From: Halorubrum trapanicum
GTDB lineage: Archaea; Halobacteriota; Halobacteria; Halobacteriales; Haloferacaceae
Length of the DNA: 64,000 bases
NCBI RefSeq assembly: GCF_002355655.1
Contig: NZ_AP017569.1
Span: 1,240,001 to 1,304,000 of the forward strand
Reading direction: 5' to 3'
Both the position numbers and the translations under genes were made by a program. Below the pieces are notes generated by a model that did not search any database, was not told where the DNA came from, and saw nothing but the letters and a program-made list of their open reading frames with translations. Of this stretch, positions 2,357-61,542 are shown one piece after another (position 1 is the first letter of the stretch; each line of letters begins with the position of its first letter).

Positions 2357-2371
2357 GTGCATAGATTCTGT

Positions 2372-2602: not shown

Positions 2603-2694
2603 TCCCGACGAACCAAGCTGACTGTCGGACTCACGCGAATCCCCGCGCCTGATGCCGTGAGAGATACTCAATAGCCGACGGGTCCTACCAGGTG

Positions 2695-3248: not shown

Positions 3249-3409
3249 ACCGGAGAATCGACTCGTACCGACTTGAAACGCATGGTCCAGCGAATCATCG
3301 TCGAGAAATCGCTTCGGACCGCTCCGCCAGCCACCAAACGGTTTTGTCCCCCGCCACACCGGTCTACGGCACGGCGGGAGCGAACCACGGGGAACCGCCC
3401 GTCGAGGGC

Positions 3410-3856
3410 GTGGACGTGGCGGCGATGCGGCGGTATCTCGCGGAGACGGACGTCCGATTCGCGGTCCTGTTCGGCTCGCGGGTCCGCGGCGACGGCCACG
3501 AGTCGTCCGACGTCGACGTCGCCCTCCGGTTCCCGGACGATTTGTCTCCCACGGAGCGGTTCCGCCGACGGAACCGGATCGACGCGGACCTCCAGAGTCA
3601 CGCGGACGCCTTCGTCGACGTGAGCGACATCGAAGACCTTCCCGTCCCGATCGCGCGCGCCGCCCTCCGGGACGGGATTCGGCTGGTCGGAGACGACCGG
3701 GACGTCGACGCCTATCGCGAGCGGGTCGAGGCCGAGTACGAGGAGACCGCCACCGAGCGGAGCGGGACCGCCGGGAGTTCGTCGATCGGCTCGCGAGGGG
3801 AGAGCAATAGACGGTCGACGCGGTTGTCGGAGTTGCTTGCTTCTCCCCCGTTATAA
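3410..3856 (+). CDS. MntA-type minimal nucleotidyltransferase, 3' end apparently frameshifted
   Basis: The core LFGSRVRGDGHESSDVDVAL contains the GSx10DxD motif of minimal nucleotidyltransferases, whose members act as antitoxins that AMPylate HepT toxins. I prefer the GTG at 3410; a TTG at 3344 and an ATG at 3425 are alternatives. After about residue 115 the frame becomes Ser/Arg-rich and atypical. The +1 frame from about 3755 reads a charged helix ending FVDRLARGEQ and stopping at 3808-3810, which looks like the original C-terminus. A one-base indel is therefore likely. No HepT gene follows, so the pair is broken. Confidence 0.6.
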   Translation: MDVAAMRRYLAETDVRFAVLFGSRVRGDGHESSDVDVALRFPDDLSPTERFRRRNRIDADLQSHADAFVDVSDIEDLPVPIARAALRDGIRLVGDDRDVDAYRERVEAEYEETATERSGTAGSSSIGSRGESNRRSTRLSELLASPPL

Positions 3857-3914
3857 CCGTTTTAACGGCGATAGTCCGACCCCCACAAGACTAAGGTATT
3901 ACGGGGGGTATTAC
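3848..3914 (+). promoter_or_regulatory. Promoter region of the AbrB/PIN operon with an inverted repeat and a GGTATTAC direct repeat
   Basis: CCGTT (3848-3852) and AACGG (3864-3868) form an inverted repeat around an AT-rich centre that includes TTATAA. Further down, GGTATTAC occurs at 3895-3902 and again at 3907-3914, 12 bp apart, ending 5 nt before the ATG at 3920. AbrB-fold antitoxins commonly bind such sites to repress their own operon. Binding is inferred, not shown. Confidence 0.4.
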
Positions 3915-3919
3915 TAGAT

Positions 3920-4180
3920 ATGAGCAAGTCTACGCGTGTCACTGAGAAGGGCCAGGCGACGATCCCTCACGAACTCCGCGAAAAGTACGACTTACAGCCC
4001 GGTGACGAGGTCGTCTGGATGGACACCGACGAGGGGATCGTCGTAAAGAAGCGCACCCGCACTGGTGGCCGTGGGATGCTCGTTCCCGAGGGCACCTCCG
4101 CGGAGAAGCGCGAGGAGATCGCAGCGGAACTGGGTCAGCGCGTCCGCGACCGCCGCGACCGTAACTATGAGGACGTTTGA
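3920..4180 (+). CDS. AbrB/MazE/SpoVT-family antitoxin
   Basis: An 86-residue protein whose N-terminus, STRVTEKGQATIPHELREKY, is the classic swapped-hairpin AbrB DNA-binding domain, followed by LQPGDEVVW. The C-terminal tail (residues 50-86) is charged and helical, suited to binding a toxin. The PIN gene begins one base after its stop, or 11 nt earlier at an alternative ATG, so the two form an operon. The direct repeats just upstream are a likely autoregulatory site. Confidence 0.85.
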   Translation: MSKSTRVTEKGQATIPHELREKYDLQPGDEVVWMDTDEGIVVKKRTRTGGRGMLVPEGTSAEKREEIAAELGQRVRDRRDRNYEDV

Positions 4181-4181
4181 G

Positions 4182-4604
4182 ATGGCGACGTACACGGCCG
4201 ACGCCGTCTCGCTACTGGCGTATCTCGTCGATGCGCTCCCGCAAGGGGCCGACCAGGCGTTCGCCGAGGCAGAAGCCGGGGAAACGGTCATCGAAGCACC
4301 GAGTACGGCTCTCGCCGAGGTACTGTACTCGGTCTCCCGCGACAAGGACGTCCGAGGGATCACACTCACCGGGACGCCCGAGGATGCCCGGCAGGCGTTG
4401 GTCGGAAACGGGCCGGTCTCGGTCGCCCCCGTCGACGAGCCGGAGCTGGCAACGTACGCGCAACTGCTGGACGAGTTCAGCATCCACGACGGGCTGATCG
4501 TCGCCAGCCACCGCGCACGGGAGACGGACGCGATCCTCACGACCGACGGTGTCATCCGCGACGCCGGGTACGAAACGATCTGGGAGTCAGTGGCCCGCGA
4601 CTGA
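4182..4604 (+). CDS. PIN-domain toxin (VapC-like)
   Basis: From the ATG at 4182 the product has 140 residues: MATYTADAVSLLAYLVDALP gives the first PIN aspartate, an acidic E-A-P-S-T-A-L-A-E-V region the second site, and FSIHDGLIVASHRARETDA the D/S-H-D-type third site, followed by LTTDGVI. An ATG at 4167 inside the antitoxin gene is also possible. PIN toxins cleave RNA in a metal-dependent way. Together with the AbrB antitoxin it forms a complete module, apparently intact. Confidence 0.8.
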   Translation: MATYTADAVSLLAYLVDALPQGADQAFAEAEAGETVIEAPSTALAEVLYSVSRDKDVRGITLTGTPEDARQALVGNGPVSVAPVDEPELATYAQLLDEFSIHDGLIVASHRARETDAILTTDGVIRDAGYETIWESVARD

Positions 4605-4741
4605 AGCCGTAGATTCGCTCGTATCGACGCCGTCAAATCGTCCGACGATGGCCGGCTCGACATCGTCGCTCCGACTGGCACCGAACTTGAACTGGCGGGT
4701 ACAATCGGCGACCGCGCGCGTTCCTCGACCGATGACGACCG

Positions 4742-4990
4742 TCAGTTCCGCGCGTACTCGACGTCGAGCGCGAGGTCCGCCGCGGTGTCGTGACGCTCGA
4801 CCTCCCGCTCGCCGAGCAGCCATTGGAATGCCGCCGTCGAGCGGCCGGCCAGCTCCCGTGCCGTCCCGAAGGAGAGGTACTCCGCTCGGTACAGCGAGAC
4901 GGCGAGCTCCTGCCGGACGATGGGCTCGCGGTCCGCCGGCGGTGCCGCGATCGCGTCCAGCACCCCGGACGGCAGATCGATGCTGCTCAT
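4742..4990 (-). CDS. UPF0175 family protein, copy 2 (diverging duplicate)
   Basis: From the ATG at 4990 the product has 82 residues, starting MSSIDLPSGVLDAIAAPPAD, which matches copy 1 (1993-2274) almost perfectly through the first half. The region corresponding to GLSKEEFHRLLGERGVERHY in copy 1 has changed at several conserved positions, for example GRSTAAFQWLL. No DUF3368/PIN toxin lies nearby. It may be a decaying or rewired antitoxin copy left by a local duplication. Confidence 0.65.
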   Translation of the reverse strand: MSSIDLPSGVLDAIAAPPADREPIVRQELAVSLYRAEYLSFGTARELAGRSTAAFQWLLGEREVERHDTAADLALDVEYARN

Positions 4991-5392
4991 ACCGACCAGT
5001 TCGACACCGCGGAACGTACTATCGCCGCTCAGGGGGTCACCACGAGGTCGGGTGTTCCACGAAGATCGCCACTGGGTCGAGCGCTTCCAGCGGGAAGTCG
5101 CATGGTGGCTTCGAGACCGCGATTCGTCGTCCACTCGCACCGATCGGGCCGAGAACCGGTCGAGCGAACCGAGCCATACGCACGCGCCCGCGAAGACAAA
5201 TCCGAAATCCACCCACCGACACCCCCGCAGCCGACTCCTTTTATACGATCCCGCAACCCCTGCCCACCCCCCTCGTTCCGAACCGCTTTTCGAAAACGGC
5301 CGTCGCACTCGCTTCGGAGGAGGTACCACACGGGACCGCAAACCGTGGAAGATCTCCGAACACTCATCCACCTCGCAAATACTCCCTCGAAT
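4991..5392. other. Non-coding region between UPF0175 copy 2 and the HEAR-repeat gene
   Basis: No convincing gene is visible in these 402 bases. The frame of the downstream gene stays open through it, but it has no start or family resemblance. A TTTTATAC element near 5235-5242 could be a TATA box for the downstream gene, which would imply a leader of about 130 nt. Confidence 0.4.
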
Positions 5393-5959
5393 ATGCCCCA
5401 GTACTCGGACGCGGACTTCCTCGAAGAGATCCGTCGCGTTGCCGATCTCTCTCATGTCGATGGTCCGCCGAGCGAACGGACGTTCGGCGATGAGGCGGAT
5501 ATGTCGGCACAGATTGTGCGGCGCCGCTTCGGCTCATGGCGAACTGCGATCGAACAGGCAGGGTTCGACTTTCACACACAGGCCGACAAGATCCCGCGTG
5601 ACAAGCTCGTCGCTGAACTCCGGTGGCTTCGTGACGAGGTGGGCCGGATCCCGACCGCCGAGCAGATGGACGAACACGGCGGGTACGCCTACATCACGTA
5701 CTACGAGCGCTTCGGGTCGTGGCGCGAGGCGCTCGACGCGGCCGGCTTCGATCCGGATCGCGGCCCCACGGACGCTGAGCTGCTTGCGGAACTCCATCGG
5801 CTGCGTGACGAACTGGAGAAGCGCCCCTCGATGAACGATATGACCGACCACGGCGCGTACGGGTGTAGTACGTACCAGCGACGGTTCGGCTCGTGGTCAG
5901 CGGCGCTCGAGGAAGCGTTCGATACTGAATCGGCGGATGAAAGCAGGGGGTCCGAGTGA
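5393..5959 (+). CDS. Homing-endonuclease-associated repeat (HEAR) protein without nuclease domain
   Basis: A 188-residue protein built of three repeats ending in RRFGSWRTAIEQAGF (about residues 40-56), ERFGSWREALDAAGF (about 103-118) and RRFGSWSAALEEAF (about 164-178). Each is preceded by a helical stretch of the type L-x-E-L-R-x-L-R-D-E. These repeats are helix-turn-helix-like DNA-binding units normally attached to HNH homing endonucleases. No HNH motif is present, so the protein may be a DNA-binding regulator or a remnant. The ATG at 5393 is chosen because upstream sequence in the same frame has no repeat structure. It lies just upstream of the S-layer gene in the same direction. Confidence 0.7.
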   Translation: MPQYSDADFLEEIRRVADLSHVDGPPSERTFGDEADMSAQIVRRRFGSWRTAIEQAGFDFHTQADKIPRDKLVAELRWLRDEVGRIPTAEQMDEHGGYAYITYYERFGSWREALDAAGFDPDRGPTDAELLAELHRLRDELEKRPSMNDMTDHGAYGCSTYQRRFGSWSAALEEAFDTESADESRGSE

Positions 5960-6395
5960 ACCCGGCGCGACGTGGCGCGCGTCTCGAAACCAACAGGGCA
6001 TCACTGTACCCTACCCAAGGAAAACGGTGTCATGCCCCGTTGCGGGCTCATACTTCCGTACACGGCCGGAAGTGGTAAGGATTGCGCTCTGCCGTCCTCG
6101 CCGTCGTCGGACGTTCGAGTGTCGTCTCCTCCGACAGACGAACGTATCGGAAATCAAAATCTGGTGTCTGACGCCCTCTATCGCTGTTTGGTAGGGGTTA
6201 TCACGACCCTACATAGACACAAAGTATTTACCAGAACCGGCACACGGTTCTAACGCAGTACCCCACCCGCATGCGTGAGAGCGAGTAACCCTGACCCAAG
6301 TCCGGTAGCGCCCTCGAGGTAATGTTGGTCGTCGACGATCGGGCATCAGGAGACGGAGAAAGCTGTCAACGCGACGCAGAACGAAACAACATACA
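5960..6395 (+). promoter_or_regulatory. S-layer gene promoter region with two inverted repeats around a TATA element and a long leader
   Basis: A TATA-like AAAGTATTTA lies at 6221-6230. Immediately upstream is GTAGGG (6191-6196) with its complement CCCTAC (6207-6212), and immediately downstream a 7-bp perfect inverted repeat, AGAACCG (6233-6239)/CGGTTCT (6245-6251). A start site near 6255 would give a leader of about 140 nt before the ATG at 6396, long for haloarchaea, though long leaders have been reported for S-layer genes. The rest of the region (5960-6190) holds no gene I can support. Confidence 0.5.
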
Positions 6396-9300
6396 ATGAC
6401 AAACGACAATACCACACGCTCGAAGGCCAACGCGGTCTTCTTTGCGGCGGTCATGGTTGTCTCCATGGTTGCGGCCGGCTTTGCGGTAGCGCCGGCAGCA
6501 GCGGTGACAGACTCCGACCTGACCGTCAACAACTTCTCGCCCCAGGAAGTGGACGAGGAGACGACGCGGACGCATAATCTAGACGTAACGATTCAGAACA
6601 TCAGCAACGCTTCGGGCCACACCTACGAAGTGGTCCTACCGGCTGGTGACTTCAACAGCACCGCAGTCGAGAGTGTAAACTCGGTTACCAACGGAACTGG
6701 TACGAACGTTTCCAGCGCCCTCGGTTCCCCGAATCCCTCCGGTGACACTCTCACGGTGCCTGTTGACACCTCCAGTGTCAATGCTTCTGAGCTCACCATC
6801 GACGTTGACGTGAACGTTGACTTCCCGAATGTCAACAGTGACACGTCGGCGCCGCTCACGGTGAACTTCAATGATGCTGATTCCTCGTCTGGCACTGTTG
6901 ATACGCCCGACGTGACCATCCTCGACACGGACAACAGCGGTGTCAATCCGTCCTACACCCCTGAATCGAACCTGTACTACTCCGGTCAGGAGATTGTAGT
7001 CGACGGACTCTCGAGTGGTACAGATTACCAGCTCCGCGAGGTTGACAGCCGGACCGACGAAGGAAACATCAGTACGAGCAGTCCGGTGGAGCAGTTCACC
7101 ACGAACGGGACTGGCGCGTACACGATCAACACTGGCGACCTCGAAACTGGTGACTACTTCCTCCGCGGCCCGGGTATCTCCGACGCAGAGGAAGAAGACA
7201 CCATCTTCGAGGTCTCCACGCAGAGCCTCTCCATCGACTGGGAAGAAGACAGCGTCGAAGAAGGTGAAGAGATCAACCTTGAAGTCGACTCCAACCGCGG
7301 GACCTACGACCTCAACGTGAGCGCGAGCGGTCTCGACGACACCGAGATCGAAACCATCTTCGAGGACAGCGTCAGCGACATTGACCTCGAAGACGAGGAC
7401 GAAGAGGTCGCTACGCTCGTCGGCATCTCTGACGGTGACTTCGCGGCGAACTTCACCGACATCGATGCGGGCGAGTACGACTTCGAATTCGAAGTGCCCG
7501 ACACCGAAGCTCAGGACACCGCCACGCTCAACGTGACGGAGGCTGAGGACGGCGAGGGCGACATCGCCGACTCGGTCATCGAACAGCAGGGTGACGTTGC
7601 CGCTATCACCGTCGAACTCGACAACACCGACACGGGCACGCTCGTGATCGGTAACGAAGAAGACGACGGCTACCAAGCGAACATCACCGTTGAAGACGAC
7701 GAAGACGACGAAGTCGTCGTCCTCTTCAACACGTACGCTGCCGGCACCCTCGCCGATGGGACTGACGCAGACACCATCGTCTACACCGAAGACGAGGATG
7801 CAAACGTTCAGCTCGACAACGAGACGGACCTGACCGACATCCTCGACACGGGTACGTACGACGTGTCGGTCGGCCCGTACACGGGTGATGACCGCTTCGA
7901 GAACACTATCGACGACCCGGACTCCATCTCCTCGCTCACGATCGAAGAGCGCGGTGACTCGGAGCTTGCTCTCTGGCGGACCAGCGAGAGCGTCGAGTCC
8001 GACATCACTGAGGAACTGGACGACGAGAACGAGAGCGCGACGGTCTCGCTGATTAACGAGGCTGTCGAGGGCGACCTGGTCACGCAGACCAGCTCGCTCG
8101 CCATCGACGAGGACGGCGACCGCAGCGACGTGCTCGTCCACCAGTATACCGCACCTGGTCTGGAAGGGCCGCTTGCGAGCGCCAGCGGTGAGAACCTCGG
8201 CAGCGCCGAGAGCACCGCCGCGCTCTACGAGCTGCTCCAGCAGAACAACAGCGTGTACACTGGCGAAAACGCCGCAGACGGCGAGCAGGACCAGCTCGAG
8301 CTGGTCATGGAGCTGGATAACCCCGGCCCGAACGAGCCGACCACGTCCATCGACGTGAACGAGCTCGCTAACGATGAGATCGGATCCGCGAGCGCGTTCT
8401 CGGACGTGTTCACGGTCGTCTACGACGACCAGACGGACACCTACTACATCGTCACCAACATTGACGAACTGAACAACGTTGTTGACGAGGACCGTCAGAT
8501 CGAAGATGAGGACCAGTACGAGGTCCAGATCAACGTTCAGGACGCGCGTCTCCTCGACCTCCTCGAAGAGGCCGATGCAGACGACTTCGAAGAGGAGTTC
8601 GTCGAGACGTCGGCCTCGTTCACGGCTGAGGCAGCCGAGGGCGAGTTCGACAACGAAGACTCGATTCAGGTGACGAACGCCGAGAATCAGTCCATCACGG
8701 GTACGACCAACGTCGCGCCCGGGACTGAACTCGACGTTCGCGTCCGCAGCGACGACGACGCCTCGACGAGCTTCATCCAGAACGATGAAGACATCGTCGT
8801 GACGCCGGAAGGCACGTGGACGGCAACGTTCGACTTCAGCGAGGCGGCAGTTGGCGACAACTTCACCGCTGAGGTCCGTCAGGCTGCCTTCACGGCTGAG
8901 TCCGACGGTCAGGTCGTCGAGCAGGTCGAAGAGCCCGCGGTCTTCGAGGTCTCGGACCTGAGCCCGGCTGAGGCAACCGCTACGGCTGGTGACTCGGTCG
9001 ACGTTTCGGCGACGATCGAGAACACCGGCGGTCGCGAGGCGACTCAGGATGTCGCGCTCACGCTTGACGGCGACGAGCTCGACACGACTGAAGTCACCCT
9101 CGCGCCCGGCGACACCACCACCGTCGAGTTCACGGCTGACACGTCCGGTCTCGAAGCCGGCGATTACACGCACGGCATCGCGACCGACGACGATGAGGCC
9201 ACGGGTACGCTGACCATCGAAGCCGCGGACGGCTCCGACGGTAGCGACGGTTCCGACGGCTCCGACGGTAGTGACGGATCCGACGGCTCCGACGGTTCCG

Positions 9301-9431
9301 ACGGCTCCGACGGTTCCGACGGCTCCGACGGCTCCGGCGAGACCGACGACGGAACGCCCGGCTTCGGTGCGCTCGTCGCACTCGTCGCGCTCATCGCCGC
9401 TGCGCTGCTCGCGACCCGCCGCAACGAGTAA
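6396..9431 (+). CDS. csg: S-layer cell-surface glycoprotein with PGF-CTERM anchor
   Basis: A 1011-residue secreted protein. The signal peptide (residues 1-36) runs through VFFAAVMVVSMVAAGFAVAP to AAAVTDSD, the usual cleavage region. The mature part is very acidic, beta-rich and contains many N-x-S/T sequons (for example NISNASG, NVSSALG), fitting N-glycosylated S-layer proteins. Near the C-terminus, a CARDB-like domain (residues 850-940) is followed by 12 Asp-Gly-Ser repeats and TPGFGALVALVALIAAAL, the PGF-CTERM signal processed by archaeosortase A with lipid attachment. It forms the cell wall lattice. The linker is Ser/Asp/Gly instead of the Thr-rich type known from Haloferax. Its GC is lower than that of flanking housekeeping DNA, in keeping with high expression and exchange. 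Confidence 0.93.
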   Translation: MTNDNTTRSKANAVFFAAVMVVSMVAAGFAVAPAAAVTDSDLTVNNFSPQEVDEETTRTHNLDVTIQNISNASGHTYEVVLPAGDFNSTAVESVNSVTNGTGTNVSSALGSPNPSGDTLTVPVDTSSVNASELTIDVDVNVDFPNVNSDTSAPLTVNFNDADSSSGTVDTPDVTILDTDNSGVNPSYTPESNLYYSGQEIVVDGLSSGTDYQLREVDSRTDEGNISTSSPVEQFTTNGTGAYTINTGDLETGDYFLRGPGISDAEEEDTIFEVSTQSLSIDWEEDSVEEGEEINLEVDSNRGTYDLNVSASGLDDTEIETIFEDSVSDIDLEDEDEEVATLVGISDGDFAANFTDIDAGEYDFEFEVPDTEAQDTATLNVTEAEDGEGDIADSVIEQQGDVAAITVELDNTDTGTLVIGNEEDDGYQANITVEDDEDDEVVVLFNTYAAGTLADGTDADTIVYTEDEDANVQLDNETDLTDILDTGTYDVSVGPYTGDDRFENTIDDPDSISSLTIEERGDSELALWRTSESVESDITEELDDENESATVSLINEAVEGDLVTQTSSLAIDEDGDRSDVLVHQYTAPGLEGPLASASGENLGSAESTAALYELLQQNNSVYTGENAADGEQDQLELVMELDNPGPNEPTTSIDVNELANDEIGSASAFSDVFTVVYDDQTDTYYIVTNIDELNNVVDEDRQIEDEDQYEVQINVQDARLLDLLEEADADDFEEEFVETSASFTAEAAEGEFDNEDSIQVTNAENQSITGTTNVAPGTELDVRVRSDDDASTSFIQNDEDIVVTPEGTWTATFDFSEAAVGDNFTAEVRQAAFTAESDGQVVEQVEEPAVFEVSDLSPAEATATAGDSVDVSATIENTGGREATQDVALTLDGDELDTTEVTLAPGDTTTVEFTADTSGLEAGDYTHGIATDDDEATGTLTIEAADGSDGSDGSDGSDGSDGSDGSDGSDGSDGSDGSDGSGETDDGTPGFGALVALVALIAAALLATRRNE
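9228..9335 (+). repeat. Twelve-unit 9-bp microsatellite encoding (Asp-Gly-Ser)12 in the S-layer linker
   Basis: Twelve consecutive 9-nt units of the pattern GAC-GGN-Ser, with the Ser codon alternating TCC, AGC and AGT. Length changes of whole units would keep frame, so the linker between the surface lattice and the membrane anchor could vary between strains. Serines may be O-glycosylated, which is inferred from other S-layer linkers. Confidence 0.85.
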
Positions 9432-9802
9432 CATCGTTGCCTAACGGTCGCGACTCGTAGCTTCCAACCATCGGCCCTCGCGGGCCGACCCACACGCGGT
9501 CTTTCTTTATCGCGCTCGACTCACACTCCGAGCGACAGCACTACCGACCGCAGTGTTGTTCGGAGCCATATCTATTTATTCGGCACAAGTAACCGATACT
9601 TGTCGACGACGCGTTCCGAGACCCAGCGTACGTCGTATCCCGTGGCATCGGCTCGACGCTCGGCGTGTCGTCGGCTTTCGATACCAGTTTCGGAGCGGTT
9701 CAACGATCTTTCTCCGGCTTCAGACGGAGCAGGATCTCAATTTCCGTAACAGGACTGAAAGAAAAATTGGACTGTGCTCACGCGTGCCCCCGTGCGACGC
9801 AA
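9432..9802. other. Intergenic region after the S-layer gene
   Basis: This 371-base stretch holds no gene. Just after the stop is a pyrimidine run (GTCTTTCTTTATCGC, about 9498-9512) that could end transcription. An AT-rich TATCTATTTATT near 9569-9580 resembles a TATA box but has no gene downstream on the + strand. The following 200 bases have no open frame with family resemblance. Confidence 0.4.
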
Positions 9803-10420
9803 TCAGCTCTCAGTGAACAGCCCGTCTACAATTGTCTCAATAAGCGCGTCTTCAACGTGGTCATAGTCGATCTCGTTGCTCGATCCGATGGGCGCGTTTT
9901 GCGACCGTACGGTAAACACGATCGAGGTGAATAACTGATCAATCAGGGCTGGGTCGTCATAGCGGAACGACTCGAGCTCTGCCCACCGCTCAGAAAAGGT
10001 GAGGGCCACACTACTACATTGCTCTTCGACGAATGGTTTCTCCATTTCCGCCGCTGCGAGCCGGTCTTGGAGTTCTCGCAACTCTCCCTCGACAATTAAC
10101 GCGGAGATGAGCGGATTCGATTGGACTTCGTTGAAGGTTGTCTCGAGAACCAGCTGTACCTCTTCTCGCGGGGTCTCTCCTTCGGCAACGGTTTCAGCAA
10201 TCTTCTTTTCAAGCTCTTCTCGCTCCCGTAGGAGTACCCTGAAGTACAGTTCCTCTTTTGAATCAAAGAATTGATAAAATGTGCTTGTACCAATATCGGC
10301 CTCGGCTGTCAGGTCGCTGATTCGAGTCCGGTCGAAGCCATACTGCGCAAACAACTCTCGCCCAGCCTCAATCAATTGAGAACGAATTCGCTCCTTCTCT
10401 TGGTCGCTAAATCGGCTCAT
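9803..10420 (-). CDS. TetR/AcrR-family transcriptional regulator
   Basis: From the ATG at 10420 the product has 205 residues. The N-terminal TetR DNA-binding domain is clear: ELFAQYGFDRTRISDLTAEA, then DIGTSTFYQFFDSKEELYF as the recognition helix and following turn. The C-terminal two thirds are helical ligand-binding sequence. A GTG at 10474 would add 18 basic residues. It is divergent from an operon encoding a COG1361 surface protein and an RND exporter, the usual arrangement for a TetR repressor controlling an efflux system. The intergenic inverted repeats are likely operators. Confidence 0.88.
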   Translation of the reverse strand: MSRFSDQEKERIRSQLIEAGRELFAQYGFDRTRISDLTAEADIGTSTFYQFFDSKEELYFRVLLREREELEKKIAETVAEGETPREEVQLVLETTFNEVQSNPLISALIVEGELRELQDRLAAAEMEKPFVEEQCSSVALTFSERWAELESFRYDDPALIDQLFTSIVFTVRSQNAPIGSSNEIDYDHVEDALIETIVDGLFTES

Positions 10421-10475
10421 TTGTCTGCCGATTGAGCGTCGCTTCTTGACTGACTTTCCCGCATCGGTTGCCACT

Positions 10476-10509
10476 TAGAATTCTATGAACAAAGCGTTTA
10501 TCAATTTGT
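10476..10509. promoter_or_regulatory. Candidate TetR operators between the divergent regulator and exporter operon
   Basis: Two symmetrical sequences lie side by side: the 10-bp perfect palindrome TAGAATTCTA (10476-10485) and ACAAA (10489-10493) with its complement TTTGT (10505-10509) around an AT-rich 11-nt centre containing GTTTATCA. The second has the 15-21 bp span expected for a TetR dimer and covers a possible TATA element for either gene. Binding is inferred. Confidence 0.5.
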
Positions 10510-10634
10510 GAGCCTGCGAACTAGTGTACGTCAAATGAGCGAGTCAAAGGACGTGGCTGTTGGACTACGACCTGTAGGCGGCGAAACACATCTCGAACAG
10601 ACCTCGAGGGGCGGCCGAACTGCGGGGGGTTCCC

Positions 10635-12317
10635 GTGACACAGCGGTCGATTCTTACCGTGTTCGTGACGGCTCTCCTGCTCACCAGCGGGACGGTTGGC
10701 GTCGTCGCTGGGGCGACAGCCTCGAATCCGACAGTTGGTGACACAGCGACCACAGATCTTTCTGCCCCGACCGCGGCTGGGTCACCCCTTCAACCACAAG
10801 CAACGGGTCTTGTTCGCGGCTCTCCGGACCTGTCTGTGCTGATTTCCCAGAATGAGGTTACCCCGGGACGGATAAACGAGGTAACACTCCAAGTTGTCAA
10901 CGACGGTGAGGTTGATCTGGGAACACCGCAGTCCCGAAGCATCGTCACTACCGCACGTAGCGTTCGACTCACCGCGACGAGCGATGACTCACCGCTTTCG
11001 GTCGAAACGGGGACAGTCGCACTTGGTGCTGTGGCGGAAGAGGCCCCCCGAGAAGTTCCGGTAGCGGTAAGCGTGCCAAACGGCACCGAACCGGGGAATT
11101 ACGAGCTTGAGGTCGAACTCGAATACTCCTATACAAGTCAGTACAGTAGCGGTGTTACCTACGACCGTGAGGAGACAGTCACCGCTGATGTCGATGTCAC
11201 GGTAACTGACGACGCACGGTTCAGAATTGTCGATATCACCACTAATTCGCAGGTTGGCGACCAGGGGACACTCGAAGCCACGGTTAAGAACGTTGGCGCA
11301 ACGGCTGCGTACGAGACGACTGTCGCACTTGAATCTTCAAGCGCTGGACTCACGCTCGGAGAGCGGACCGCAGATACAGCCCTCGTCGGATCACTTTCGC
11401 CGGGAGAATCCGTTACTGTCCCGTACAATGTCGCTTTCGCGTCAACTGCGCCGGACAGACAGTATGCTATCTCCGGGCAAGTCTCGTTTGAAACATCGGA
11501 TGGCATCTCTCACGTCGATCAAGGGCTCTCAGCAGGAGTGACACCCCTTGCGGAGCAGACGTTTGCCTTAGAGGATATTGAGTCGACACTGCGTGTCGGC
11601 GAAGACGGTGAGATAACCGGTACTGTAGTCAATACCGGCCCGGTTCCGGCCGATAACGTCGTCGTCCAATATACGGATACGTCTCAAAGCATTCTTCCGA
11701 TCGAGCAGTCAGCGGCGGTCGGGCCACTCGATGCGGGTGAATCGTCAGCGTTCACGCTGCCGCTTTCGATTGGTGGCGAAGCCGAGTCGGGACTCCGAAC
11801 AGTTGATTTTGCGGTCCAGTACCGCAACGACGACGGCGAAGCGCGCGCCTATAGTGATGTCGCCGTCAACGCCGAGGTTGCGCCGGAACGAGACGCGTTC
11901 AGCGTCGCGATCGCGAACCAGACCATCGAGGCTGGCGGAACTCGCACGGTTGAAGTGACCGTAACGAACAATCTCGGAGAGCCCGCAAGCGATCTTGAGG
12001 CACGGCTGTTCGCCAACGACCCACTTGCGACCGGCGACACCGATACGGGATACGTCCAGTCGCTTGCGGCCGGCGAGTCGACAACAATGACGTTTGAACT
12101 GACTACGACTGGGTCCGCAACACCCGGGAGTACGTACCCCATCTCACTTGACTTCCGATATGACGATGTTGATGGAGACAGCCACCTTTCTGATACCTAT
12201 CGGGCCCCGATCGACGTGACAGCGAGCGAAGGCGGCGGACTCCCGATTCCCATCATCGTCGTCGCACTGCTCATGGTAGGCACCGCCGCGCTTGTCATCT
12301 ACCGGAGGCGGCAGTAA
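10635..12317 (+). CDS. COG1361-type secreted surface protein with C-terminal membrane anchor
   Basis: Begins with a GTG at 10635. Residues 1-27 form a signal peptide (ILTVFVTALLLTSGTVGVVAG). The 560-residue protein has several CARDB/NEW3-like Ig repeats (for example EVTLQVVNDGEVDLGTPQSR and EVTVTNNLGEPASDLEARLF) and ends with a single membrane helix (IPIIVVALLMVGTAALVIYR) and a basic tail. COG1361 proteins often precede archaeal RND or ABC exporters. The exporter gene starts 3 nt after its stop, so the two form an operon, presumably acting together at the cell surface. The role of the Ig part, as an external adaptor or ligand binder, is not known. Confidence 0.85.
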   Translation: MTQRSILTVFVTALLLTSGTVGVVAGATASNPTVGDTATTDLSAPTAAGSPLQPQATGLVRGSPDLSVLISQNEVTPGRINEVTLQVVNDGEVDLGTPQSRSIVTTARSVRLTATSDDSPLSVETGTVALGAVAEEAPREVPVAVSVPNGTEPGNYELEVELEYSYTSQYSSGVTYDREETVTADVDVTVTDDARFRIVDITTNSQVGDQGTLEATVKNVGATAAYETTVALESSSAGLTLGERTADTALVGSLSPGESVTVPYNVAFASTAPDRQYAISGQVSFETSDGISHVDQGLSAGVTPLAEQTFALEDIESTLRVGEDGEITGTVVNTGPVPADNVVVQYTDTSQSILPIEQSAAVGPLDAGESSAFTLPLSIGGEAESGLRTVDFAVQYRNDDGEARAYSDVAVNAEVAPERDAFSVAIANQTIEAGGTRTVEVTVTNNLGEPASDLEARLFANDPLATGDTDTGYVQSLAAGESTTMTFELTTTGSATPGSTYPISLDFRYDDVDGDSHLSDTYRAPIDVTASEGGGLPIPIIVVALLMVGTAALVIYRRRQ

Positions 12318-49085: not shown

Positions 49086-52000
49086 CTACCGCTCCGCCTC
49101 GTCGGCGAACTCCGGCCCGCCCCCCTCTGCCGCCGGGAGGACGAGCGCCACGGTCGTCCCCTCGCCGTCGATCCCGGTGTCGAACCGGATCTCGCCGCCG
49201 TACGCCTCCACGACCCAGGCGGCAATCCACAGCCCGACGCCGGTGTTGTGCCGGAGCTGCGTCACCTCGCGGTCCCCGGTGATCACCTCCCGAACCGCGG
49301 TCGCGATCCCCGGTCCGTCGTCGGCGACTCGCAGCGTCACCGCCCCGGCGTCCGGGTCGCGCTCGGCGCTCACCGCGACGCGCGGGGCGTCGCCCCCGTG
49401 TTCGACGGCGTTCTCCACGAGGTGGTCGACCGCGATCGAGAGGCGGTCGTCCCCGCGCACCGCCAGCCCCTCCGGCACGTCGGCGGTGATCCGGGCGTCC
49501 GCGCGTTCGCTCGCGTGGCGCTCGACGACCTCCGCGACGACGGCGCCCACGTCGATCGGCTCCGGGTCGGTGACGTACCCGTTCTCGACGACGCGACGGA
49601 GGGTGGCGGCTCCCTCGGCGACGCCGCTCAGCCGCTTGCCGGTGGCCTCGATCCGCTCAGCGAACTCACGGATTCGATCGTCGTCGGTCCGATCGGCGAT
49701 CTCGGCGGCGAAGCCGAACACGACGTTCAGCTCGTTTCGCAGGTTGTGTCTGAGGATCCGGTTGACGATCCGGACGTACCGCTCGCGGCGCTTCCGGTCG
49801 GTGATGTCGGTGTAGATGCCGAACGCCCGGCGGGTCCCCTCGGTCTCGTAGCTGAACCCGCGGAAGAGGAACTCGCGCGTCCCGTCGACGGTCTGCCGGC
49901 GCACCTCCTCGGTCGCGAACCCGCGTTCGCGGACCAGCGAGTCGAGGTCCGTCGCCACGACCCCGCCGCGCTCCTCGGGGTCACCGAGCCGGTCGTCGTG
50001 GATGTCCAACGCGCCGATCGACCGGCCGCGGAGCGTCGCCTCGTCCACGCCGAACTGCGTCTCGAACGCGGGGTTGGCCCCGTCGATGACGGTCTCCTCG
50101 TCCTCTAAGATGACCTCCATCACCGGGTCCGGGATCCGGTCGAACAGCCGCCGGAAGCGGTCGCGCTCGGCGGACAGCTCCGTGCGCGTCCGGCGGAGGT
50201 CGGTCGTGTCGGACAGCGACCCGACGACGCCGGCCCCGCGGTCGGAGAGCCGCGACAGCCGCAGTTCGCCGTGTCGCGGCCGGCGGTCGCCGTCGCGGTC
50301 GGCGGTCAGGTCGACCGTCCGGGTCGGCTCCGGCGTCCCGCCGGCCTCGGTCGCCGCGTCGGTGAGCGCCGCGACCGCGTCGGCGACCCGGGGCGCGTCG
50401 GCCTCGTCGACGAACGCGTCGAGCGGTTCCCCGGCGACGTCGTCGAGGTCGTCGGCGCCGATCCACGCGAGGAACGGCGCGGTGGCGTAGCTGACGGCGC
50501 CGTCGCCGTCGAGCACGCACACCATGTCGTCGACGTTCTTGAGCGCGTCCTCGTAGGTGCGGAGCCGGCGGCGGCGGTCGGCGGCGTCCATCGCGGCGAC
50601 CGCGTTCGTCGCCAGCAGTTCGAGGACTGAGACGTCGCTCTCGTCGAAGGCGTTCGGCTCGACGGCGCCGACGATGAACGCGCCGTGCCCGCCGAGCGGA
50701 ACCGCCGCGACGGAGCGCATCCCGTGGTACGACCGCCCGTCGTCGACCGCCGCGAGGTCGTCTTCCACCCGCGGTTCCCCCGTCTCGAACACCCCGCCGG
50801 TGAGCCCCTCGCCGGGGCGGCGCGGCCCGCGGCTGTCCGCGAACCGGTCGCCGAGCCCGTCGCTCGTGGCGACCAGCCGGAGGCGATCCGTCTCGGGATC
50901 GTACAGCCGGACGCCGCTGATCTCGTAGCCGAGGACCTCGTCGGCGGCCTCGATCAGCCGGTCCGCGACCGCCTCCCTGTCGTCGGCGCGCTGGATTCGT
51001 TCGACGGTGCCGAGGAGCCGTTCGAGGATGCGCTCGCGGCGCTTCCGCTCCGAGGCGTCCGCGAAGAACACGGAGAGCCCGTCGGGCGAGGGGTACGCGG
51101 TCACCTCGGTCCACAGGTCGAGCGGCTCGTAGCGGTCCTCGAACGAGACCGGCTCCTGCGTCTCCATCGCCCGGCGGTAGTTCTCCTCGTACTCCTCGCC
51201 GATCGCGGCCGGGAACTCCTCCCAGACGTCGGCGCCGAGCAGCTCGTCCGGCTCGCGGTCGAGCAGCGACGCCGCCTTCTCGTTGACGTAGGTGAACCGC
51301 CAGTCGGCGTCGAGCGCGAAGAACGCGTCGTCGATCCGTTCGAGGGTGTCCTCGAACCGCTCGACCGCCGCCTCGCGCTCCTCGCGGGCGATCCGCCGCT
51401 CGATCGCGCGTCCCAGCCAGTCGGCGAGCAGCTCGACGAACAGCCGCTCCGACTCGTCGAACGGGCGGTCGCGGCGCTCGGGGTCGAGGAAACAGAGCGT
51501 CCCGTACGTCTCGCCGTCGACGACGACCCGCCCGCCGACGTAGCTGCCGAAGCCGAACGCCTCGTAGGCCGGGTCGTCCCCGAGGCCCGCGGCCTCGGGG
51601 TCCGTGAACGCGACCACGTCGTCGCTCCGCACCGTCCGCTGGCAGTAGGTCAGTTCGAGCGGGATCGTCCCGTCGTCGTCGAGGTCGCGCTCGCCGAGCG
51701 AGTCCAGCAGCCCCGTCCCGTCGCTGTACCGCCGGAGTTCGAGCCGGTCGCCGTCGACCCGCGAGGAGTAGCCGATCGACAGCCCGAGCCGGTCGCGGCC
51801 CAGCTCCAGCAGCCGGTCGAGCTTCTCGTCGAGGTCGGTCGTCCGGTCCGAGACGACCCGGATGAACGGTTCGAGGACCGGCTCCTCCTCGGCGTCCCGC
51901 TCACGCACGCGTCTCTCATCCGATCCCTCGGCCAGCCTGTCAGCGAGCGTCTCGCCGTCGGCCGCGAGCCGCCGCCCGGAGACGTACTCGACCCCGAGCC

Positions 52001-52436
52001 GGCTCGCGTCGATGCCGGCGTCGGGGCGGTCTCGCACCGAGTAGGCGAGTACCGTCGCGTCCGGGTAGCGGTCGCTGACCGCCCCGAGGCGGTCGAGCGC
52101 GACCGCGTCGCTCCCGGCCGCGAGGTCGGCGTTCGCGGCGCCCCCGCCGCTCGGTCCGGACCCGCCGTCGCCGCTCGGTCCGGGTCCGCCGCCGTTCAGC
52201 TCGGACGCAGCGTCGTCACCGAGGTCCCCGTCGTCGTCGCACAGTCGGACGACGACGCGCTCCGGACCGGCGGCCGCGTCCGAGTCGGCGTCCGCGTCCG
52301 GGCGGCCGGTCGCGCCCGAATCCGCGTCCCCGTCGCCCGCGACGTCGCCCGCTCGGCGGACGCGCGTCTCCTCGGGGAGCGCTCCCCAGGCGGCGTCGAC
52401 GGGCTCGCCGACGTGAAGCGTCGACTCAGCGGTCAT
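49086..52436 (-). CDS. Large soluble multi-sensor histidine kinase (GAF/PAS)
   Basis: A 1116-residue protein with no membrane segments. In order: an acidic, degenerate receiver-like N-terminus (about 1-190), a GAF domain (about 200-350, [20 protein letters not shown]), PAS (about 360-475), a second GAF (about 480-640), PAS (about 645-775) and PAS (about 785-905, [20 protein letters not shown]). The kinase core follows, with H-box [21 protein letters not shown]-box [11 protein letters not shown] and G-box [19 protein letters not shown]. It should integrate several cytoplasmic cues. No response regulator is adjacent. Confidence 0.88.
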
Positions 52437-56969: not shown

Positions 56970-57112
56970 GCCGTCGCGGTCGGGCGACCGCTCGCGACGG
57001 CGGCGCCGCGGCCGCCCGACCGCTCGCCAGCCGACCGGGCCCGGGGGCGCCGCTATCAGCCGGGATAATTCGACTCTGATTCTTATATACCCCCGCGGGC
57101 GAGTGACGACGA

Positions 57113-59701
57113 ATGAACAGCGACGACGCGAGGGCTCGTTCCGAGAGCGGTTCCGCCGACGGGGACGGCTCGACGGCATCGACGGACGCGGACCGTTCGG
57201 CGGCATCGACGGACGCGGACCGTTCGGCGGCATCGACGGACGCGGACGCGACCACCGACGGCGGGGTCGCGTCCGACGAGACGGCGGCGGCCTCCAGCGC
57301 CGCCGCGGGCGGCGACGTTCCCGTTTCGGCGTTCCGCGAGGCCGCGGAACGGTTGACCGACGGCGACCTCGGAGCGCGGTTCCCGGCCGAGGAGGCGGAC
57401 GGCGAGGCGGCGGCGCTGGCGGCGACGCTCAACGAGTTCGTCGACGGGGTCGCCGAGACCGTCTCCGCCGTCGACGGCTTCGGCGACGAGGTGGCGGGCG
57501 CGACCGAACACGTCCGGTCGAACGTCGACCGCGCGAAGGCGCAGAGCGACGAGGTGTACGCCGCGGTCGACGACATCGAGGCGGCCGCGACCCGCCAGCG
57601 CGACGACATCGCGGCCGCGACGAGCGAGCTCCAGACCGTCTCGGCCGCCACCGAGGAGGTCGCCGCCTCCGCGGACGAGGTGGCCGAGACCGCGGCCGGC
57701 GTCGCCGAACGGACCGACGAGGGGACCGACGCCGCGACCGCCGCCATCGAGGAGCTCCGCGTCGTCGACGAGCGGACCGAGGAGGCCCTCGAACGGGTCG
57801 AGACGCTCGAGTCGGAGGTCGCGGCGATCGAGGACGTCACCGACCTGATCCAGGACATCGCCGACGAGACGAACATCCTCGCGCTCAACGCGTCGATCGA
57901 GGCCGCCCGCGCCGGCGAGGCCGGCGCCGGCTTCGAGGTGGTCGCCGAGGAGGTCAAGAGCCTCGCCGAGGAGGCGCGGGACGCCACGAGCGAGATCGAG
58001 TCGTCGATCCGGTCGGTGCGCGCCGAGACGGACGCGACCGTCGACGAGATGGCCGAGATGCGCGAGCGCGCCGACGAGGGGATAACCACCGCCGAGGAGG
58101 CGCTGGAGGCGTTCACCGACCTCGCCGCCGACGTCGAGGAGACGACGAGCGGCGTCGAGGAGATCCGCGACGCCACCGACGACCAGGCGACCTCGATCGA
58201 GGCGGTGGTCGACGCGGTCGAGTCGGTCGGCGACCTCGCCGAGGAGACGGCCGCCGACGCCGGCGACGCCACCGCGGTCGCGCACGCGCAGAAGACGTCG
58301 CTTGCGGAGGTGGCGGCCGGGGCGTCGACGCTCGCCGACCGGACCGGCACCCTCGACGACGCGCTCGACGCCTACGACGCGGACGGCACGGCGGCCGACG
58401 ACGCGGTCGTCCTCGACTTCTGGCACGCGTTCGGCGGCCGCAAGGCCCGGCTCCTCGACGAGTTCGCGGCCGAGTTCGCCGCCGAGACTGACGGGATCGC
58501 GGTCCGGCCCTCCTCGAAGGGGAGCTACCGCGGCGTGTTCGAGGCGACGCTCGCGGCGGCGGACCGGGGCGACCCGCCAGCGATCGCGCACCTCTACGAG
58601 ATCGGCACCCAGCGCGCGCTCGACAGCGGGGCGTTCACGCCCGTCGAGCGCCTCCTCGACGCGGGCGGCGCCGGCAGCGTCGGAGGGACCGACGCGGGGG
58701 TCGGGCCGACCGACGCCGCGGGCGGCCCGGGTTCGGGGTTCTCGCCCGACGACCTGCTCGACCCCGTGGCCAACTACTACCGGACCGACGGCGTCCTCCA
58801 CTCGATGCCGTTCAACGCGTCGACGCCCGTGCTGTACTACGACCGCGCGGCGTTCGAGCGCGCCGGGTTGGACCCCGACGACCCGCCGGAGACGTTCGAC
58901 GAGGTCCGCCGCTGCGCGGAGCGGCTCGTCGAGCGCGGCGCGACGGAGACGGGAATCACGTTCGCGACGTACTCGTGGTTCGTCGAGCAGTGGTTCGCCG
59001 AGGCCGGCGAGCCGCTCGTCGACGCCGACAACGGGCGGGGCGGCACGCCGACCGAGAGCCGGCTCGACGGGCCGGTCGGCGAGCGGGTCTACCGCTGGAT
59101 CGCCGACATGGCGGCCGACGGCCTCTACCACGACCCCGGCATCGAGGCCCGCGGGCAGGCCCGCGAGGCGTTCCACGAGGGGCGCGCCGGGATGCTGATC
59201 GGCTCAACCTCCGCGATGGTCGACGTCCGGGAGGGGGCCTCCTTCCCCGTCGGGGTCGGCTACTTCCCGGTCGCGGACGAGCGGCACGGCGTCGTCGTCG
59301 GCGGCGGGTCGCTGTGGGTCGCGGACGGCGCGTCGACGGCCGAGCAGCGCGCGGCCGCGGCGTTCCTCGGCTGGCTCGCGGCGCCGGAGCGGCAGGCGCG
59401 CTGGCACCGCGAGACCGGCTACTTCCCGGTCCACGAGGGCGCGGTCGACCGGCTCGACCGCGACGGGTGGTTCGACGAGAACCCCGGTTACCGCACCGCG
59501 ATAAACCAGTTGCTCGACGCCGAGGACGCGGTCGCCACGACCGGCGCCCGGATCGGCCCGTTCGATACGGTCCGGACGCTCGTCGCCGAGGCGTCCGTCG
59601 ACGCCCGCGAGCACGGGGTCGACTCCGCGGTCGAACGGCTCGCCGACAGCACCGCCCTGCAGCTCGAACGGTACGCCGAGGAGCGCGCCGACGGCTCGTA
59701 G
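57113..59701 (+). CDS. Soluble methyl-accepting-type transducer fused to a UgpB-like solute-binding domain
   Basis: An 862-residue protein with no signal peptide or membrane helix. A low-complexity start has three STDADRSAA-type repeats (residues 20-47). Residues 75-430 form an MCP signalling coil with the hairpin tip LIQDIADETNILALNASIEA and GAGFEVVAEEVKSLAEEARD, plus a HAMP-like start. From about residue 437 the sequence becomes a sugar/glycerol-phosphate-binding protein (VVLDFWHAFGGRKARLLDEF; GDPPAIAHLYEIGTQRALDS; LHSMPFNASTPVLYYDRAAF) to the end. MCPs drive the CheA kinase; binding proteins normally sit outside the cell. Here both parts should be cytoplasmic, so it may sense an internal phosphorylated sugar. 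The gene stands alone. Confidence 0.85.
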   Translation: MNSDDARARSESGSADGDGSTASTDADRSAASTDADRSAASTDADATTDGGVASDETAAASSAAAGGDVPVSAFREAAERLTDGDLGARFPAEEADGEAAALAATLNEFVDGVAETVSAVDGFGDEVAGATEHVRSNVDRAKAQSDEVYAAVDDIEAAATRQRDDIAAATSELQTVSAATEEVAASADEVAETAAGVAERTDEGTDAATAAIEELRVVDERTEEALERVETLESEVAAIEDVTDLIQDIADETNILALNASIEAARAGEAGAGFEVVAEEVKSLAEEARDATSEIESSIRSVRAETDATVDEMAEMRERADEGITTAEEALEAFTDLAADVEETTSGVEEIRDATDDQATSIEAVVDAVESVGDLAEETAADAGDATAVAHAQKTSLAEVAAGASTLADRTGTLDDALDAYDADGTAADDAVVLDFWHAFGGRKARLLDEFAAEFAAETDGIAVRPSSKGSYRGVFEATLAAADRGDPPAIAHLYEIGTQRALDSGAFTPVERLLDAGGAGSVGGTDAGVGPTDAAGGPGSGFSPDDLLDPVANYYRTDGVLHSMPFNASTPVLYYDRAAFERAGLDPDDPPETFDEVRRCAERLVERGATETGITFATYSWFVEQWFAEAGEPLVDADNGRGGTPTESRLDGPVGERVYRWIADMAADGLYHDPGIEARGQAREAFHEGRAGMLIGSTSAMVDVREGASFPVGVGYFPVADERHGVVVGGGSLWVADGASTAEQRAAAAFLGWLAAPERQARWHRETGYFPVHEGAVDRLDRDGWFDENPGYRTAINQLLDAEDAVATTGARIGPFDTVRTLVAEASVDAREHGVDSAVERLADSTALQLERYAEERADGS

Positions 59702-59762: not shown

Positions 59763-60377
59763 TCAGCGCTCCCGACGCGTCCACTCGCGCAGCGTGAACC
59801 GGTCGTACGCCGTCTCCGCCGCGATCTCCCACTCGCTCTCGTCCCACTCGGGGTAGTACGTGTCCCCCTCGTAGACGCCGTCGACGTGGCTGAGGACCAT
59901 CCCGTCGAGGTGCGGCTGGAACAGCTCGTAGATCCCGCCCCCGCCGAGGACGTAGACGGGGTCGTCGGTCCCGCCGGCGGTGTCGGTCCCGCCGGGGTCC
60001 GTCGACTCCTCGGGTATCGGATCCGCCTCGGCGGCGACCCGGTCCGCGTCGGCGCCCGCTCCGGCCGCCTCGGCGTCCGCCGTCGGGGCGGCCGTTCCGA
60101 CGAGGTCGCGGGCCAGGTCGATCGCCGTCTCGACGTCGTTCGCGACGACCGCGGTCGGGGCGTCCACCGCCTCGACGCTCCGGCTCACGACGATCTGCCG
60201 GCTGCCGGGGAGGTCGTCGCGCATCGAGTCGAAGGTGCGGCGGCCGAGGATTACCGGCGAGCCCGCGACGCGCTCGCGGTACTGCCGAACGTCCGCCTCG
60301 ATGTGGGGCCACGGTACCTCCCCCTCGTTCCCGATCACCCGGTTCTCCGCGAGCGCGGCGACGCTGACGAGTCTCAC
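59763..60377 (-). CDS. folA: Dihydrofolate reductase with a low-complexity insert
   Basis: Begins with a GTG at 60377 (204 residues; typical haloarchaeal forms have about 160). The start [20 protein letters not shown] holds the active-site segment, then [20 protein letters not shown] (NADPH binding) and [20 protein letters not shown]. Between about residues 99 and 143 lies an Ala/Asp/Gly-rich insert ([20 protein letters not shown]) before the GGGGIYE loop. It makes tetrahydrofolate. Active-site pieces are intact, so the insert is probably a tolerated surface loop. Confidence 0.88.
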
Positions 60378-60483
60378 GGGTCGGATACGGGACGGAGGGG
60401 CAAAAGCGGCGCGTCGGGTTCGGGGGTCGAGGCCGGACGGGCGAGCGGACTCGGCCGCCGGAACCCGACAGGGGAGGGAGGCC

Positions 60484-61542
60484 TCAGCCGTCGAGGCCGA
60501 GCAGGTCGAACGGGTAGCCGTTGTCCAGTTCGTCGGCGCGCTCGTAGACGACGCGCGCGGCCGCCACGTCCTGGATCGCGAGCCCGGTCGAGTCGAAGAC
60601 GCTGACGCCGCGCACGCCGTCGGCGTCGGCCGGCGTCCCGGGGGTGCCCGGACGGCCCGCACGGCGGCCGACGACGATCTCGCCGATCTCGCCGTAGATG
60701 TCGTCGTCGGTGAGCGTCCCCGCGGCGTAGGGGACGTTGATCTCGCCGGAGTGGGTGCACTGCTCGTGGTCGTCGATGACGACGGTGGCGTCGAGGAGGA
60801 GTTCGTCCGCGAGCTCGTGTTTCCCCGCCGCGTCCGCGCCCATCGCGTTAATGTGGGTGTGTTCGCCCACGTCGTCGGGGCCGACGATCGGGTCCTCGAC
60901 GGGCGTCACCGTCGAGAGCACGTCGCAGTGGCCGGCCTCGGCGACCGAGCCCGCGCGCACGTCGAACCGGTCCTCGAAGGCGTCGACGAAGTCGGCGACG
61001 CGCTCCTCGTCGAGGTCGCTCACGACGACCTCCTCGATGTCTCGCACCGTCGAGATCGCCTCCAGCTGCGTGTACGACTGGACGCCCGCGCCGACGATCC
61101 CCAGGCTCGTCGCGTCGGGGACCGCGAGGTGGTCGGTCGCGACCGCGGCGGCCGCGCCGGTGCGTTTCATCGTCAGCGTCGTCCCGTCGAGGACCGCGAG
61201 CGGGAACGCCGTCTCCGGGTCCGAGTAGATCATCGTCCCCATCACCGTCGGGAGGTCGTGGTCGGCGGGGTTGTCGGTGTGAACGTTCACCCACTTGATC
61301 CCGGCCGCGTCCCAGCCGTCGCCGGTCGCGGTCTCCTCGGCGACGTCCTCCTCGCGCACGTCGAGGTACGCCGGCATCGACCGGAAGTCGCCGTTGTACT
61401 CGGGGAGGTCGATGTACGACTTCGCCGGCATCTTGGCGTCGCCGCGCTCGTAGGCCGTGAACGCGCCGCGGACCGCGTCGATCACGCGGTCCATCTCGGC
61501 GTTCTCGTCGACGTCGTCCGCGTTGAGAAGCAGCGTCTGCAT
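60484..61542 (-). CDS. Ornithine cyclodeaminase/alanine dehydrogenase family enzyme
   Basis: A 352-residue protein. The substrate region has [20 protein letters not shown] and [20 protein letters not shown]; the NAD-binding fold begins [20 protein letters not shown], with [20 protein letters not shown] and [20 protein letters not shown]. Members of this family act on ornithine, alanine or related amino acids. The archaeal form in Archaeoglobus is an alanine dehydrogenase; the substrate here is unproven. It lies between DHFR and glycerate kinase on the same strand with small gaps, so read-through is possible. Confidence 0.88.

Follow-up and report, generated by a model that had tools for sequence, protein, structure and literature searches.

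A fused chemoreceptor gene in Halorubrum trapanicum

We analyzed a 64,000-nucleotide stretch of the Halorubrum trapanicum genome (contig NZ_AP017569.1, positions 1,240,001 to 1,304,000; the window) and focused on one gene, at 57113-59701 on the forward strand. It joins the signalling part of a methyl-accepting chemotaxis protein (MCP) to a solute-binding protein (SBP) domain related to UgpB, the binding protein for glycerol-3-phosphate (G3P). A previous examination of the letters alone (the sequence-only reading) had proposed this fusion, and our searches bear it out. The gene is a single open reading frame (ORF) of 862 codons with an ATG start, and both Pfam matches are far above their curated cut-offs: MCPsignal at residues 206-374 (E 1.3e-37; 129.7 bits vs. 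a cut-off of 34.6) and SBP_bac_8 at residues 451-792 (1.6e-37). The 862-aa protein consists, in order, of a variable tail, a weak HAMP-like segment (a feature absent from the sequence-only reading), a full-length MCP hairpin, a 12-residue linker, and a complete UgpB-type SBP. The features of the gene are as follows (pLDDT, predicted local distance difference test; GC3, G+C content at third codon positions).

57083-57089 (+): TATA-box-like TTATATA, read from the sequence, ending 23 bases before the ATG; putative promoter element
57113-59701 (+): complete MCP-SBP fusion gene, 862 aa (ORF, GC3 profile, orthologues)
57113-57319 (+): acidic low-complexity N-terminal tail, residues 1-69, predicted disordered and varying among orthologues
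57320-57448 (+): HAMP-like segment, residues 70-112 (Pfam HAMP E=1.9e-4, sub-threshold)
57404-58366 (+): MCP signalling hairpin, residues 98-418 (Pfam MCPsignal 206-374; helix 98-418 in the structure model)
57653-57658 (+): candidate methylation pair E181-E182 in SAATEEVAAS (consensus scan; columns E/Q and E in 32 orthologues)
57869-57964 (+): hairpin tip TNILALNASIEAARAGEAGAGFEVVAEEVKSL, residues 253-284, the CheA/CheW-contacting region
58136-58141 (+): candidate methylation pair E342-E343 in AADVEETTSG (consensus scan)
58358-58405 (+): short flexible linker, approximately residues 416-431 (pLDDT <50 at residues 416-427 in the model)
58403-59602 (+): UgpB-type solute-binding domain, residues 431-830 (Pfam, structure matches), without signal peptide or lipobox

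GC3 is uniformly high (0.88-0.99) along both halves and the linker, so the frame is coding over its whole length. An in-frame stop lies two codons 5' of the ATG. The spacing of the TTATATA motif suggests that the gene has its own promoter and a leaderless, near-leaderless or short-leader transcript of the haloarchaeal kind. No RNA families were found near the receptor gene.

The fusion is conserved and has a single origin

Scanning the SBP domain against 84,980 species genomes yielded 74 related loci. At 51 of these, the window's own included, the SBP and MCP matches share one reading frame, always with the MCP first; the orthologues thus have the same order as the window protein, and the halves are not separate genes. 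Eight named genera carry the fusion: Halorubrum, Halobiforma, Halomicrobium, Haloarcula (with Halomicroarcula), Halapricum, Halohasta, Halonotius, and Haloferax. Frames are broken at two loci (L009 and L060) and interrupted by contig ends at two others (L013 and L016); the fusion is also present in complete single-contig genomes. The fused SBPs form a single clade on one side of a branch (support 97/87, 98% of bootstraps), with the free SBPs on the other side, which fits a single fusion event. Within a sample of 341 haloarchaeal genomes, 59 encode the fused protein (two of the 59 broken or cut). Plasmids yielded no fused gene; the matches on Halobacterium salinarum plasmids are stand-alone transport SBPs.

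Hairpin and N-terminal region

The sequence-only reading had noted the MCP tip and methylation patterns in the N-terminal half, and both are evident here. The tip, at about residue 262, is flanked by ∼160 residues of helix on each side, a length that fits the 44-heptad class, which is given as dominant in archaea in a 2022 archaeal census (PMC9680633). The structure model is of a monomer, and its rendering of the hairpin as a single straight helix reflects a limitation of predicting one chain. Across 32 orthologues, the tip motif TNILALNAxIxAARAGExGxGFxVVAxEVKxLA is mostly invariant. The two candidate methylation pairs (181/182 and 342/343) are equidistant from the tip, ∼80 residues to either side, with one on each hairpin helix. 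A third consensus match, at residue 744, falls inside the SBP domain and was taken as chance.

Within the HAMP-like segment, the DGDL motif is kept in orthologues, G84 and L86 are nearly invariant, and the model predicts helices at residues 71-82 and from 98 onward. A 27-bp tandem repeat (3.3 copies, 57158-57247) encodes a 9-aa repeat in the disordered tail, whose length varies even between close relatives.

The receptor is predicted to be cytoplasmic

The highest 19-residue hydropathy mean (KD19) of the window protein is 0.95, so it has no transmembrane segment, and a scan of the same protein for export signals found no lipobox (it has a single Cys), no N-terminal RR, and no signal peptide. 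We considered a missed N-terminal transmembrane helix and rejected it on the hydropathy scan and on the upstream stop, which closes the frame and makes such a helix impossible for this protein. Stand-alone SBP relatives differ: the haloarchaeal ones that could be read to their start have a Tat-type (twin-arginine translocation) RR motif and a lipobox, and those from Chloroflexi have a lipoprotein signal. A signal peptide is absent in the fused proteins and present in most free SBPs. The earlier view that a normally extracellular domain serves as the input of an intracellular chemoreceptor is the best reading of the sequences.

The absence of a membrane helix holds for the window protein and most of the fused family, not for every member. 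In the Halohasta/Halonotius clade, an N-terminal hydrophobic stretch is present in four proteins (KD19 1.84-2.22 in L029, L032, L037, and L038) and, in weaker form, in three others (L039, L043, and L046). In the former, the segment lies at residues ∼25-70, is bounded by conserved flanks (MxLRxS ... GLFSRxWG), and is seen in this sub-clade only. Should it be real, the segment could act as a membrane tether, gained or lost within the family, ahead of the MCP hairpin; such a tether would still have to leave the binding domain on the MCP side.

The binding pocket retains UgpB ligand contacts

The C-terminal half proved to be a complete SBP related to UgpB, as had been proposed. The NCBIfam UgpB model NF008211 matches residues 428-828 (E 1.5e-65), and its 221.5 bits are below the cut-off of 411, so we call the domain UgpB-like and not UgpB by the curated rule. 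Among solved structures, E. coli UgpB is the best match (4aq4, 1.4e-56). The predicted domain has a two-lobed fold (pLDDT mostly 83-97), for which Foldseek ranked UgpB first (6x84, 9lff, and 4aq4; target TM-score 0.85-0.93), including forms bound to G3P or glycerol-1-phosphate (G1P), followed by a dinucleotide-binding protein and by M. tuberculosis UgpB, which binds glycerophosphocholine (GPC).

In Phaeobacter UgpB, Tyr64, Ser143, Ser266, and Tyr342 contact the phosphate, Gly303, Arg393, and Glu88 contact the hydroxyls, and Trp188 and Trp191 form a clamp (PMC12718374). We verified this numbering on the aligned sequence before mapping the positions, which are listed below with their E. coli and Phaeobacter UgpB equivalents (positions by alignment; roles of retained residues from PMC12718374).

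58526-58528 (+): Y472, equivalent to Y42 / Y64 (phosphate)
58598-58600 (+): E496, equivalent to E66 / E88 (glycerol hydroxyl)
58820-58822 (+): S570, equivalent to S121 / S143 (phosphate)
58967-58969 (+): T619, at the W169 / W188 position (first clamp tryptophan, lost)
58976-58978 (+): W622, equivalent to W172 / W191 (second clamp tryptophan, kept)
59204-59206 (+): S698, equivalent to S247 / S266 (phosphate)
59303-59305 (+): G731, equivalent to G284 / G303 (glycerol)
59420-59422 (+): Y770, equivalent to Y323 / Y342 (phosphate)
59573-59575 (+): R821, equivalent to R374 / R393 (glycerol hydroxyl)

All 51 fused domains have identical residues at the eight ligand positions. The 32-row alignment has 68 invariant columns out of 400 for the SBP, and these include every one of the eight (hypergeometric p ∼5e-7). 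The position of UgpB W169 is N in the free haloarchaeal SBPs and L in most Chloroflexi SBPs. The double tryptophan clamp has been tied to G1P/G3P binding and arose in UgpB after the split from GPC and dinucleotide binders (PMC12718374). Because the eight contacts are kept but the first clamp tryptophan is replaced, a glycerol phosphate is the likely ligand and a larger glycerophosphodiester is possible.

Linkage of the receptor to glycerol genes in relatives

Outside Halorubrum, glpK and/or glpABC are found near the fused gene in 19/33 loci, in several arrangements (counts are from the flanks available per locus, and several loci without glp genes are cut by contig ends). In Haloarcula and close relatives, glpABC and glpK are divergent, and the receptor gene occupies exactly the interval between them. 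The genes at locus L033 are arranged as follows, in coordinates of that locus (glp genes by NCBIfam).

1967-3343 (-): glpC
3340-4626 (-): glpB
4604-6334 (-): glpA
6654-9227 (+): receptor
9356-10888 (+): glpK

In Halohasta and Halonotius, the receptor comes after glpA/glpK, a membrane-like protein, and an orc1/cdc6-like ATPase; at the Halohasta locus L029 it is then followed by phosphotransferase system (PTS) enzyme I, dhaM, and dhaL. In genome G117, likely Haloferax by sequence and from a genus in which further fused receptors occur, the receptor is ∼2.3 kb from glpK and divergent from it, and at L031 the gene order differs from the other glp-linked arrangements. Permease genes of ATP-binding cassette (ABC) transporters adjoin most free SBPs (20 loci); no ABC partner genes were found beside the receptor genes at the fused loci. 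Taken together, the pocket residues and the glp neighbourhood indicate that the ligand is probably a glycerol phosphate or a glycerophosphodiester, not phosphorylated sugars in general.

Two further genes recur in these neighbourhoods. A conserved membrane-like protein of ∼360 aa is encoded directly after glpK in many haloarchaea (L033:10892-11974 (+) and orthologues, including L095:8534-9667 in the H. trapanicum genome). It had no Pfam or NCBIfam match and is a candidate glycerol channel or transporter. Also conserved, beside the glpK cluster, is an orc1/cdc6-like AAA ATPase (L033:12037-13212 (+), L029:5183-6349 (+), L096:13160-14359 (+), and L095:9946-11154 (+)); its scores fall well short of the curated cut-offs for replication initiators, and it could have a regulatory role.

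Chemotaxis machinery

The che genes that the sequence-only reading had suggested looking for are present elsewhere in the genome (3.08 Mb, three contigs). A single cluster at C1:2.10 Mb contains cheB, cheA (with a CheW-like domain), cheR, and cheF, and seven other MCPs match in this genome. The match to another MCP of the genome, at C1:2646024-2647367 (-), crosses one in-frame TGA, and this MCP may be a pseudogene or two adjacent genes. Among the 341 haloarchaeal genomes, CheF is present in 59/59 with the fused receptor vs. 150/282 others (Fisher p ∼8e-15, uncorrected for ancestry), and in 33/45 of those with a free SBP only. GlpK is found in 294/341, and the two fused-receptor genomes without a GlpK match are G020 (a fragmented assembly) and G108; co-occurrence with GlpK is a weak test of the ligand because GlpK is so common.

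A proposed glycerol-phosphate receptor

We favour, with moderate confidence, a cytoplasmic receptor that reads glycerol phosphate, most likely the G3P made by GlpK, and drives metabolism-dependent taxis to glycerol; the ligand, the sign of the response, and the behaviour are what we infer. Glycerol entering the cell would be phosphorylated by GlpK to G3P. Binding of G3P, or of a related glycerol phosphate (G1P or a glycerophosphodiester), would close the two lobes of the C-terminal SBP, which on its 12-residue linker is predicted to lie beside the HAMP-like segment, where the base of the MCP hairpin is open. Lobe closure would then be transmitted down the hairpin to the tip and alter CheA activity through CheW. 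CheR and CheB would tune the two methylation sites for adaptation, and CheY-P would act via CheF on the archaellum. A cell so equipped would follow glycerol gradients via its own glycerol catabolism and not via the outside solute. The broader scenario, for which we see an evenly balanced case, is that an exported-type binding protein was moved into the cytoplasm once, fused behind the hairpin, and used as an internal glycerol-phosphate gauge for navigating to glycerol.

Several observations weigh against this proposal. The W169 position holds N in 40/51 and T in 11/51 fused domains, leaving the double-tryptophan clamp incomplete, as it also is in related glycerophosphodiester and dinucleotide binders; the preferred ligand may thus exceed G3P in size. 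The pocket residues are just as conserved in the free transport SBPs, and their conservation therefore speaks for the chemistry bound and not for a receptor-specific ligand. In H. trapanicum itself, the glpCBA-glpK cluster is intact at C1 ∼570-578 kb without a receptor, ∼720 kb from the receptor gene, and no glp linkage is seen at the Halorubrum, most Haloferax, Halapricum, and Halobiforma loci. The receptor occurs in only ∼17% of the sampled haloarchaeal species, though most have GlpK, so that glycerol use alone does not demand it. Finally, the CheF statistic ignores shared ancestry.

The strongest competing explanation, which we nevertheless consider unlikely, is that the receptor senses cytoplasmic glycerophosphodiesters or phospholipid-breakdown products (GPC-like compounds or archaeal lipid headgroups), not G3P. 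This would suit a pocket that keeps its phosphate- and glycerol-binding residues while having N or T for W169 in all fused domains, given that both tryptophans mark G1P/G3P binders vs. GPC/dinucleotide binders (PMC12718374). The free haloarchaeal SBPs also have N there, and Foldseek places dinucleotide- and GPC-binding proteins high. However, the neighbours in relatives serve glycerol and dihydroxyacetone use (glpK, glpABC, dhaL, and dhaM) and are not phosphodiesterases, and specificity is not fixed by one altered position.

It is quite improbable, in our estimation, that the receptor tracks lipid synthesis or energy state through G1P or the overall pool of glycerol phosphates and so drives energy- or growth-linked taxis instead of glycerol taxis. 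UgpB has similar affinity for G1P and G3P (PMC12718374), and G1P, the backbone of archaeal lipids, is made in every cell. A lipid precursor made constitutively would nonetheless report a gradient poorly, and the neighbouring genes point instead to the catabolic GlpK/GlpABC. We give still less credence to an SBP that no longer binds a small molecule and serves as a scaffold or docks a partner (GlpK, for example, or an SBP-interacting protein): the domain is indeed away from any ABC transporter, but a scaffold would not need the invariance of the eight ligand-contact positions (p ∼5e-7). The idea that the fusion is an artefact of assembly or annotation, with two adjacent genes merged or a chimera formed, has next to no chance of being right, since the two broken frames among relatives are set against 51 orthologous fusions in a single clade, complete genomes among them, and one uninterrupted frame of uniform GC3.

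Algal glycerol ranks among the major carbon sources of hypersaline waters. In genera open to genetic work, the family of fused receptors offers a candidate glycerol receptor gene that adjoins glpK and whose product has a predicted pocket. If the proposal of an internal glycerol-phosphate receptor is true, the family would be an example of a transport-type binding protein turned into an internal chemotaxis sensor and, to our knowledge, the first demonstrated case of an SBP domain serving as the input of a chemoreceptor in the cytoplasm. An SBP match can lead automatic annotation to label such receptors as transport proteins.

Other genes in the window

A functional tie between the receptor and its immediate Halorubrum neighbours (rlmE, dihydrofolate reductase, and an ornithine-cyclodeaminase-like/alanine dehydrogenase gene) was considered and dropped, these neighbours being conserved within Halorubrum only. 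The dihydrofolate reductase HdrA (59763-60662, -) has its match split in two by an acidic low-complexity insert of ∼45 residues, and its listed start is probably too far upstream. The 1116-aa protein encoded at 49086-52436 (-) resembles, by sequence, a multi-PAS/GAF histidine kinase.

Comparison with known systems

Our literature search found no paper describing the fused MCP-SBP family, its pocket, its glp linkage, or its function, and none naming a glycerol receptor for haloarchaea. The 2022 census (PMC9680633) names SBP_bac as one of the archaeal chemoreceptor input domains and also lists soluble receptors whose input domain is C-terminal; the MCP-SBP architecture has thus probably been counted before, and the census text gives no ligand, neighbourhood, or mechanism for the SBP_bac receptors. 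The sequence-only reading had also called the order of domains, with the ligand domain last, the reverse of the usual layout. The order is indeed unusual, but it is not novel: besides the C-terminal ligand domains in the census, the cytoplasmic receptor TlpD carries its CZB domain at the C-terminus, after an MA domain (PMC12871147).

In their predicted cytoplasmic location and in having the ligand domain at the C-terminus, after the signalling domain, the fused receptors resemble TlpD and other CZB chemoreceptors. Those have a zinc-binding helical bundle, a short MA domain, and no methylation sites, whereas here we find a two-lobed SBP, a long hairpin, and candidate methylation sites.

Binding-protein-mediated taxis is itself familiar in haloarchaea. 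The BasB and CosB proteins of H. salinarum are separate binding proteins outside the cell that signal to the two-transmembrane transducers BasT and CosT. The transmembrane counts of BasT and CosT are given in PMC3579733, and PMC9680633 cites Kokoeva 2002 on these systems. Unlike in these pairs, the SBP described here is covalently fused and predicted to be cytoplasmic, within one soluble protein. With UgpB of E. coli, of Phaeobacter, and of M. tuberculosis (GPC-binding), the domain shares the fold and all phosphate- and glycerol-contacting residues. UgpB, however, is an exported transport protein; its counterpart here is fused to an MCP, predicted to be cytoplasmic, without ABC partner genes, and without W169.

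The closest functional precedent is Car (Htr11) of H. salinarum, a soluble cytoplasmic transducer for arginine (PMC3579733). Because Car reads arginine inside the cell, cytoplasmic metabolite reception has a haloarchaeal precedent; like Car, the fused protein would be a soluble transducer that reads an imported nutrient internally and uses the same Che machinery. The two differ in ligand, and Car is not described in PMC3579733 as bearing an SBP domain. Cytosolic sensing and signal-first order are thus already known from Car and TlpD, and we regard the family as cytoplasmic chemoreceptors whose input domain is, unusually, of the exported type and for which a specific ligand can be predicted.

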